NCBI GenBank assembly: GCA_022545805.1
Contig: JAKEIJ010000008.1
Span: 1-11,328 of the forward strand
DNA from: Nitrosotalea sp.
GTDB lineage: Archaea; Thermoproteota; Nitrososphaeria; Nitrososphaerales; Nitrosopumilaceae
Reading direction: 5' to 3'
Length of the DNA: 11,328 bases
The translations under genes were made by a program, and so were the position numbers. How positions within the stretch are numbered: the first letter of the stretch is position 1; every line of letters begins with the position of its first letter. The notes under the pieces are model-generated. The model saw nothing but the letters and a program-made list of their open reading frames with translations, made no database searches and had not been told where the DNA came from. Shown here in pieces: positions 2,042-4,425 of the stretch.

Positions 2042-2092
2042 AACACGCTCAAATTCATCAGGTACTAATCAATCACAATAAATTACTGACTG

Positions 2093-2100
2093 AAAAATAA
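2093..2100 (+). promoter_or_regulatory. TATA-like element of the structured RNA
   Basis: AAAAATAA about 21-26 nt upstream of the first paired base at 2118, the spacing expected for an archaeal TBP/TFB promoter. Its complement would lie near the right distance for the minus-strand small Cys/His gene too, so the direction is uncertain. Confidence 0.4.
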
Positions 2101-2117
2101 TCAATCGCCCCAATAAA

Positions 2118-2262
2118 GCACGCAGACGGACTGGGATGATGAAATATGATTTTTGGTCCACCCAGCCGTGCTACAGGGCACCCCGGTAATAGAACAAGAT
2201 GAGGATTAAGGCTAACGTACCAATGACTCTATGTGAGTCAGAACCGGGGAACATTCTTTTTT
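2118..2262 (+). ncRNA. Putative stand-alone structured RNA of unknown class
   Basis: No convincing reading frame crosses 2072-2350, but the plus strand folds well by eye. A first hairpin pairs GCACG (2118-2122) with CGTGC (2167-2171), then CTGGG (2131-2135) with CCCAG (2161-2165); its apical part contains ATGATGA. A second domain is closed by a perfect 7-bp stem, CCCCGGT (2181-2187) with ACCGGGG (2243-2249), and encloses a 6-bp hairpin TGACTC (2224-2229) / GAGTCA (2235-2240) with a 5-nt loop. The closing stem is followed at once by a T-run (2257-2262), and an AT-rich TATA-like element lies at 2093-2100, about 25 nt before 2118. It has higher GC than its flanks, as archaeal ncRNAs in AT-rich genomes do. 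I could not match it to RNase P, SRP, C/D, H/ACA or a known riboswitch. Confidence 0.6.
2257..2262 (+). terminator. T-run terminator after the structured RNA
   Basis: Six consecutive T shortly after the stem closed at 2249. Archaeal RNA polymerase terminates at such U-tracts, and the position supports a discrete transcript rather than a leader of the next gene. Confidence 0.5.
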
Positions 2263-4201: not shown

Positions 4202-4283
4202 TGCCTTTTTCCTTATAACTGTTATCTAGTGGAGAGAGATCGGATGGTGGGGCCGACCGGAATTGAACCGGCGACACACGGGT

Positions 4284-4337
4284 CACTACAGCTCCAAACT
4301 GTACATCATCCTTGCGTCAGTGAAGCTTGTGAAACCA
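4284..4337 (-). other. tRNA-Trp intron 2, canonical position 37/38
   Basis: A 54-nt insertion between G37 and A38. The bulge-helix-bulge comprises the anticodon stem as outer helix, CTCC (32-35) against GTAG with one C-U mismatch as central helix, 3-nt bulges AGT and TGA, and a 7-bp inner helix GGTTTCA/TGGAGCT with wobble pairs. The loop carries CTGA (4320-4317) and GATGATG (4310-4304), resembling D' and C' boxes. Confidence 0.78.
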
Positions 4338-4346
4338 CTGGAGCCC

Positions 4347-4372
4347 TTAGCGGTGATCATGTGATCTAAACT
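4347..4372 (-). other. tRNA-Trp intron 1, non-canonical, in the anticodon stem (between positions 28 and 29)
   Basis: A 26-nt insertion between AC (27-28) and GGG (29-31) of the anticodon stem. It forms a bulge-helix-bulge: central helix GGCG (exon, 3' strand of the D stem plus base 26) with CGCT (intron end), 3-nt bulges ACA and AAG, each cut after its second base, and an inner hairpin GATC-ACAT-GATC. Such introns are processed by the archaeal tRNA-splicing endonuclease, whose relaxed (heteromeric) form in Crenarchaeota and relatives accepts non-canonical sites. Confidence 0.78.
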
Positions 4373-4425
4373 GTCGCCATACCAGGCTAGGCTACGACCC
4401 CACGTAATGACCATAAATGCACTTG

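Follow-up and report, generated by a model that had tools for sequence, protein, structure and literature searches.

The window, by which we mean the whole stretch of 11,328 nucleotides analysed here (Nitrosotalea sp., assembly GCA_022545805.1, contig JAKEIJ010000008.1), belongs to a genome assembly of 208 contigs that totals 1.14 Mb and has a completeness of 70.7%. Its plus strand carries pheT (218–1852; Pfam tRNA_synthFbeta), a structured non-coding RNA (about 2107–2253) recognised from its fold, its relatives and covariation, and downstream of the RNA a gene with an Lrp/AsnC ligand-binding domain (2409–2648). Between pheT and the RNA lies a small ORF on the opposite strand that has no Pfam match and is regarded as a putative gene. 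The composition profile places an AT-rich, TATA-like box, AATAAATTA, at 2077–2085 (plus strand), 22–30 nt 5′ of the nucleotide at which base pairing in the RNA begins. The initial annotation had mentioned a TATA-like element, and a corresponding AT-rich box is found about 22–30 nt before the 5′ stem of the RNA in 45 of 74 aligned relatives, the 45 being the rows with a clear anchor, as rows without one were left out of the profile. In these 45 upstream regions, C and G are nearly missing at positions −29 to −23. The box overlaps the last pheT codons in many relatives that have pheT just upstream, and part of its conservation may therefore be coding; judged by position and composition, it is probably the RNA's own promoter. 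A T-rich stretch seen in the sequence at 2254–2262 (plus strand) is the presumed end of transcription, and we take the 3′ end of the RNA to lie at about 2254–2262 from this T-run.

The proximity to pheT allows a reading in which the RNA is an unclassified cis-element, either a structure of the pheT 3′ UTR or a regulator of the downstream gene. In 86 of 97 loci, the RNA is indeed preceded by the end of pheT in the same orientation, and in 73 of these that end lies within 400 nt of hairpin 2, the second of the two hairpins described below. We nevertheless regard this reading as highly improbable: the distance between pheT and the RNA ranges from 33 to 1888 nt; 11 loci show no pheT (in four of them, including L008, L009, L011 and perhaps others, the upstream sequence is short); in the window, the putative opposite-strand ORF intervenes; the AT-rich box, by eye, holds its position even where the upstream sequence differs; and the pockets of the RNA fit rRNA.

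The initial annotation had proposed a discrete structured RNA. On the plus strand, positions 2093–2262 fold at −46.9 kcal/mol, compared to a shuffle mean of −36.7 kcal/mol (z = −2.68; 3 of 200 shuffles as good), but because the fold of the minus strand is fairly stable too (z = −2.00; equalled by 4 of 200 shuffles), energy alone is weak proof of an RNA, and it was the relatives that settled the matter. A blastn search of 151 genomes recovered the stretch from the greater part of the family and also, within the order, from some genomes belonging to other families. A covariance model, R1, built on 51 of the recovered sequences, matched 242 of 300 genomes of the order; among the 197 genomes with a completeness of 90% or more and a contamination of 5% or less, it matched 176. 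In the model alignment (70 rows, 67 of them distinct), pairing is seen in 92.2% of cells, both partners vary in 15 of 30 pairs, and a covariation score of 0.247 is obtained. On each of the five covariation measures, the alignment exceeded all 500 shuffles, and slid controls were far lower. This alignment is fitted to the model and thus biased towards it. Covariation is, however, also visible in an unfitted MAFFT alignment, in which, for example, a pair of the hairpin 1 upper stem is CG in 26 and UA in 25 sequences. Before alignment, identical rows and the rows L001, L004, L013, L019, L041 and L078 were left out. GACGG, ACCCA, GUCAG and both ACA columns are invariant in all 51 MAFFT-aligned sequences. 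The proposed RNA, its hairpin at 2118–2171 and the 7-bp closure of its second domain (2181–2187/2243–2249) are thus real and conserved, and compensatory changes among relatives, one of the suggested checks, exceed all 500 shuffles.

A search of Rfam release 15 with the window and six distant relatives, also suggested at the outset, returned no family above the gathering cut-off at the locus. RNase P, SRP and riboswitches, which had been excluded from the beginning, are ruled out by this result together with tmRNA and 5S rRNA. Elsewhere in the window, the sole strong-looking Rfam match was a tmRNA-like 3′ piece at 4245–4295 on the minus strand. It lies below the cut-off and away from the RNA locus, and it resembles the 3′ part of a tRNA with an intron. 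The surrounding stretch (4245–4401, minus strand), whose acceptor and T-arm halves end in CCA, is probably an intron-containing tRNA gene; ARAGORN found no tRNA there.

Hairpin 1 (H1; 2118–2175, plus strand) was delineated by covariation, invariant columns and pattern parsing. It consists of a lower stem (2118–2122/2167–2171), a 5′ guide strand GACGG (2125–2129), an upper stem GGACUGGGA/UUUUGGUCC (2128–2136/2151–2159), a K-loop (2137–2150) in which G2138 and A2139 stand opposite G2148 and A2149, a 3′ guide strand ACCCAG (2160–2165) and, one nucleotide after the stem, an ACA box (2173–2175), all on the plus strand. The minimum free energy fold instead pairs CUGGG with CCCAG; this pairing was dropped because the upper stem given above covaries. 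We take the A–U pair 2130–2157 as the closing pair when target is bound, with two more G–C pairs below it in the free RNA. In the window, the ACA lies 15 nt from the pocket-closing pair. The GACGGA, CACCCA and ACA columns are invariant in 51 of 51 MAFFT-aligned sequences, and of 97 R1-matched sequences, drawn from the whole order, 89 yielded a parsed H1. The parsing patterns prescribed ACGG, ACCCA, (U/C)CAG and a box of the form A(C/U)A; these letters were thus given, while spacing and the choice between ACA and AUA were free. Within this freedom, the spacing from ACCCA[N] to the box is exactly 7 nt in 89 of 89 sequences, though 5–9 nt were allowed, and the box is ACA in 88 and AUA in one. In 81 of the 89, exactly eight layers lie between ACGG and the GA motif, as the published 10-layer rule for archaeal box H/ACA RNAs asks. 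Between lineages, the upper stem changes wholly whereas (G)ACGG and ACCCA are kept: the 5′ strand is GACGG in 84 of 89 sequences, AACGG in three and UACGG in two, and the 3′ strand is ACCCAG in 83, ACCCAA in five and ACCCAC in one. Taking the best of four offsets, the lower stem has six of six base pairs in 46 sequences, five in 41 and four in two, compared to a canonical 7–9; in the window, the sixth position is a C–C mismatch.

H1 and its ACA box are enclosed by an outer stem, P0 (2107–2110 with 2176–2179, plus strand). P0 is misregistered in the MAFFT alignment and was tested by permutation instead: a helix of at least six occurs in 43 of 89 sequences, compared to a mean of 23.0 and a maximum of 34 in 300 partner permutations. 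Its length is 4 bp in the window and 7–12 bp in the distant sequences inspected (L118, L122, L131 and others). As P0 encloses H1, the ACA box lies inside a closed helix, an arrangement that seems unusual for an H/ACA RNA.

Hairpin 2 (H2; 2181–2253, plus strand) was defined by pair counts, invariant columns and pattern. Its plus-strand elements are a 7-bp lower stem (2181–2187/2243–2249), a 5′ guide strand AGA (2191–2193), an upper stem with a bulged A2231 (2194–2199/2228–2234), a kink-turn (G2201 A2202/G2225 A2226) with a 3-nt bulge (2222–2224) and the stem GG 2203–2204/CC 2220–2221, a 3′ guide strand GUCAGA (2237–2242) and an ACA box (2251–2253) separated from the stem by one nucleotide. The H2 pattern, with its (U/C)CAG core and A(C/U)A box, is present in 96 of 97 sequences (ACA 95, AUA 1). 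In the window, the ACA lies 14–16 nt from the pair taken to close the pocket, for which there is more than one choice, and by eye the GA stem, examined in the window only, has 10–11 layers with one bulge. The GG/CC stem of the kink-turn pairs in 94% of cells and the upper stem in just 79%. By a loose test, the 14-nt 5′ pocket stretch contains AAGA in 23 of 96 sequences, AGA, as in the window, in 60, and neither in 13. A GGCUA near the kink-turn (2210–2214 in the window), conserved in 73 of 96 sequences, has a possible pairing partner in UAGCC (E. coli 1931–1935); as a 5′ guide it was dropped, being absent or altered in the other 23.

For this second domain, a 6-bp inner hairpin (2224–2229/2235–2240) had been proposed. 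Although 91.5% of its cells pair, three of its six pairs never vary, and 487 of 500 shuffles equalled or exceeded the observed value on four of the five covariation measures and 436 of 500 on the fifth. We rejected it, as it shows no covariation beyond shuffles and its bases fit the kink-turn and the guide strand.

The assignment to "no recognised class" and the accompanying exclusion of H/ACA RNAs did not survive the comparison with archaeal H/ACA architecture. In the excerpts available from two sources (PMC7991803, PMC4652768), archaeal box H/ACA RNAs are described as having a lower stem, a pocket and an upper stem with a K-turn or K-loop at ten stacked layers including two G–A pairs, and an ANA box 14–16 nt from the pocket-closing pair. 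Both domains agree with most of these features: each is a covarying hairpin divided by an internal loop into a lower and an upper stem, each has an ACA just 3′ of the lower stem and 14–16 nt from the closing pair, and tandem G–A pairs are found in the K-loop of H1, at 10 layers, and in the kink-turn of H2, at 10–11 layers by eye. The lower stem of H2 has 7 bp, within the canonical 7–9, that of H1 5–6; lower stems of 5–6 bp are reported for Pyrobaculum sR201 and sR202 in the part of the source available. With respect to targets, H2 can pair on both sides of an unpaired UN dinucleotide, whereas the best site of H1 leaves five target nucleotides unpaired. Among the protein partners, Cbf5 scored above the cut-off in nine of 10 genomes examined, the window's own genome showing a 133-position piece, and Nop10 was found in nine of 10 but not in the window's own, 70.7% complete genome, the nine with both genes being the more complete ones.

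An identity as a box C/D RNA would draw on weak Rfam matches to SNORD18, snoPyro_CD and others (E 1.3–8.9). These are all sub-threshold, and most sub-threshold matches are C/D snoRNAs because of the motif AUGAUGA, which sits in the K-loop of a covarying hairpin. With no D or D′ box seen by eye at guide distance, and with the ACA columns invariant, we rejected this identity as extremely improbable.

E. coli numbering of candidate targets was obtained by aligning Nitrosotalea 23S rRNA to E. coli rrlB. As no rRNA gene was found in the window's own genome, we used the rRNAs of relatives, namely 13 crudely trimmed 23S stretches (among them L082, which covers only 2333 nt of the gene, and L081, from which flanks were not removed) and 13 equally crudely trimmed 16S stretches (among them L094, which covers only 1163 nt, and L106, an incomplete gene together with flanks). 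The strands GACGG and ACCCAG of H1 are complementary to CCGUC (2590–2594) and CUGGGU (2579–2584) of the peptidyl-transferase centre, with UUAGA (2585–2589) unpaired between them. The strand GUCAGA of H2 is complementary to UCUGAC (1915–1920) and AGA or AAGA to UCU(U) (1923–1925/6), leaving U1921 and C1922 unpaired. The H1 site (6+5 bp) and the H2 site (6+3 bp with the window's own strands, or 6+4 bp) each occur once in Nitrosotalea 23S rRNA and not in its 16S rRNA. In 1000 dinucleotide shuffles, with guide limits chosen after inspection, the mean number of Watson–Crick matches per shuffled 23S and 16S pair was 0.007 for H1 (0.072 with G–U pairs) and 0.005 (6+3) or 0.0 (6+4) for H2. When consensus guides are used, each of the two sites comes out on top in all 13 23S stretches, the H2 scan using AAGA where the window itself has AGA. 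The rRNA sites are invariant and thus leave no room for guide–target covariation. One 23S rRNA, L092 from the same-genus genome G006, is about 690 nt longer than its relatives and departs from them directly after UUAAGGUA, beside the H2 target; it may hold an intron there.

Architecture, its conservation and the complementarity of both pockets to 23S rRNA are features of the sequences themselves. Taken together, they argue that the RNA is very probably a two-hairpin archaeal box H/ACA-type sRNA, encoded on the plus strand, that would guide modification of 23S rRNA. Each hairpin would bind L7Ae at its K-turn or K-loop and Cbf5–Nop10–Gar1 at its pocket and ACA. With H2 paired and U1921–C1922 left open, Cbf5 would make pseudouridine at position 1921, next to helix 69. 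H1 would clamp the peptidyl-transferase strand and present U2585 and U2586, one of which may be modified, most likely 2586, as in Haloarcula.

For H2, a strict contiguous scan also places the helix-69 site at the top, and it is in the exact nucleotide that a second reading differs: GRGUCAGA could act as an 8-bp 3′ guide strand and direct U1923 rather than U1921. With the window's strands, U1923 (LSU 2029) has the better stacking energy (−17.6 kcal/mol versus −15.7 kcal/mol for U1921, LSU 2027), and the H2 3′ strand pairs over eight contiguous nucleotides in 76 of 96 sequences, which makes such a shift possible (three of the 96 score 0 because the last guide base is unpaired). A shift to U1923 would, however, need 16 nt to the ACA and a 5′ strand ending in AG or AGA against UU, whereas the AAGA of 23 of 96 sequences fits UCUU for U1921; moreover, A/G2236 and G2235 can, by eye, form sheared pairs at the base of the H2 upper stem. 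We therefore consider U1923 a rather doubtful target and retain U1921 for H2.

For H1, the strict contiguous scan with the window's own strands does not list the peptidyl-transferase site because its gap is five nucleotides, not two. We rejected the leaders of that scan, LSU 2452 (−13.5 kcal/mol) and SSU 1365 (−15.4 kcal/mol), on the grounds that their pairing involves stem bases or bypasses the invariant strands; this decision was taken when the GACGG/ACCCA pattern across lineages was already known. The five-nucleotide-bulge geometry of H1 falls outside the published H/ACA rules considered here. H1 pairs beside the lower stem, with two to three guide nucleotides and five target nucleotides left unpaired, and this geometry invites the reading that H1 is an rRNA clamp or folding chaperone on an H/ACA scaffold, similar to snR30, and that H2 alone guides pseudouridylation. 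Pairing at the pocket bottom is what snR30 does according to the accessible part of a review (PMC7991803). On the other hand, the available text of PMC2584109 gives a pseudouridine at E. coli position 2586 in Haloarcula 23S rRNA and a predicted guide for 2586 in Haloferax, so a modifying role at this position is precedented, which counts against a pure clamp; we hold the latter to be unlikely. Somewhat less doubtful, yet still tentative, is a broader proposal in which H1 is a clamp on an H/ACA scaffold that would hold 2579–2584 and 2590–2594 of 23S rRNA with U2585–A2589 bulged, serving either a folding check by snR30-like logic or a modification of U2585 or U2586 across the five-nucleotide bulge. 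Its spread covers much of the order, as a rule not Nitrososphaeraceae (locus L193 excepted), and part of the wider phylum.

The two hairpins differ in their distribution. Among 300 genomes drawn from the phylum, R1 matched 51, just one of them outside the order. The exact H2 pattern was found in Nitrosopumilus, Nitrosotalea, Nitrosarchaeum, Nitrosopelagicus, Nitrosocaldus and Nitrososphaera (among the matches listed, 80 of at least 119 stretches). In family f8, taken as Nitrososphaeraceae, H1 was not found in any of eight sequences, and a model of H1, R2, gave no match below E 0.6 in any of 14 genomes. Similarly, among the matches listed, H1 is missing in 20 of 80 named loci, whose titles give Nitrososphaera, Nitrososphaeraceae or Nitrososphaerales in 18 cases, Nitrosopolaris in one and "bacterium" in one (one of the 20, L253, has just 118 bases on that side). 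A single Nitrososphaeraceae-titled locus, L193, does contain H1. The family retains H2 alone (L138, L139, L142, L078, L143, L145, L147, L151), in several cases directly after pheT. Outside f8, no H1 match was obtained in four of 11 genomes of the order (G016, G040, G061 and G103), several of the 11 having been chosen because R1 had missed them. The loss of H1 alone in one family indicates that the hairpins are separate modules.

Beyond the order, R2 matched seven of 40 genomes at E below 1e-5 and three more weakly, one of the 40 (G455) having been included because R1 had matched it. Because of these matches, H1 seems to be older than the order. In L173, L176 and L178–L182, the second hairpin, downstream of H1, is not H2 but a different one that has GAGAGAG and GUGUUAG, GUGAUAG or GAGUUAG strands. 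Five of these outside-order loci (L173, L179–L182) have the second hairpin with those strands and an ACA; in L176 and L178, the stretch inspected stops before a box, and L182 is without the ACGG strand. This second hairpin is perhaps a helix-69 guide of the HP2/Pf7-III kind.

HP1 and HP2 of Haloferax volcanii are described, in the text available from PMC2584109, as homologues of Pyrococcus Pf7-II/III (Pab40 in P. abyssi), with predicted targets at U2586 for HP1 and 1915/1917 for HP2. Like the hairpins described here, these are two archaeal H/ACA hairpins with predicted targets in the same two places, U2586 of the peptidyl-transferase centre and helix 69, and they are adjacent in Thermococcales. 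Different from HP2, predicted for 1915 and 1917 in the same text, H2 fits 1921; an outer stem, P0, closes H1 here, no Rfam family links the RNAs, and the comparison is by target positions only. The 10-layer GA stem, the K-loop and the ACA 14–16 nt from the closing pair recall Pyrococcus Pab91 and Pab21 and the 10/5/9 and 10/6/9 fold families, whereas, in the portions of the sources available (PMC4652768, PMC3726423, PMC6138745), those RNAs have one hairpin, a lower stem of mostly 9 bp and the target U with one neighbour unpaired. Eukaryotic snR30/U17 shares the pairing of rRNA at the bottom of an H/ACA pocket; its role, however, lies in the processing of 18S rRNA, no pseudouridylation site is known for it according to the excerpt available (PMC7991803), and eukaryotic H/ACA RNAs are described there as being without K-turn.

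Yeast snR191 and human U19 (E. coli 1915/1917) are likewise, according to PMC2584109, H/ACA guides for the helix 69 region. Yeast snR3 guides Ψ2264, which we take to be E. coli 1921. These are eukaryotic RNAs with an H box and no K-turn, and only the target region is common to them and to the RNA described here. The initial suggestion of an undescribed element thus holds in part: among the matches listed in open-licence PMC articles, we found no description of this RNA in these archaea, but its probable kind, H/ACA, is known. It matches no Rfam family above the cut-off, and the fit of H1 to the catalytic centre is unusual.

For the Nitrososphaeria, the ammonia oxidisers and their kin, the RNA provides a concrete candidate rRNA guide with testable sites in helix 69 and the peptidyl-transferase centre, and the covariance models are supplied where Rfam has none. 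It also raises the question of whether an H/ACA pocket works, or does another job, with five instead of two target bases unpaired. Nitrososphaeraceae, having lost hairpin 1, provide a comparison made by nature.
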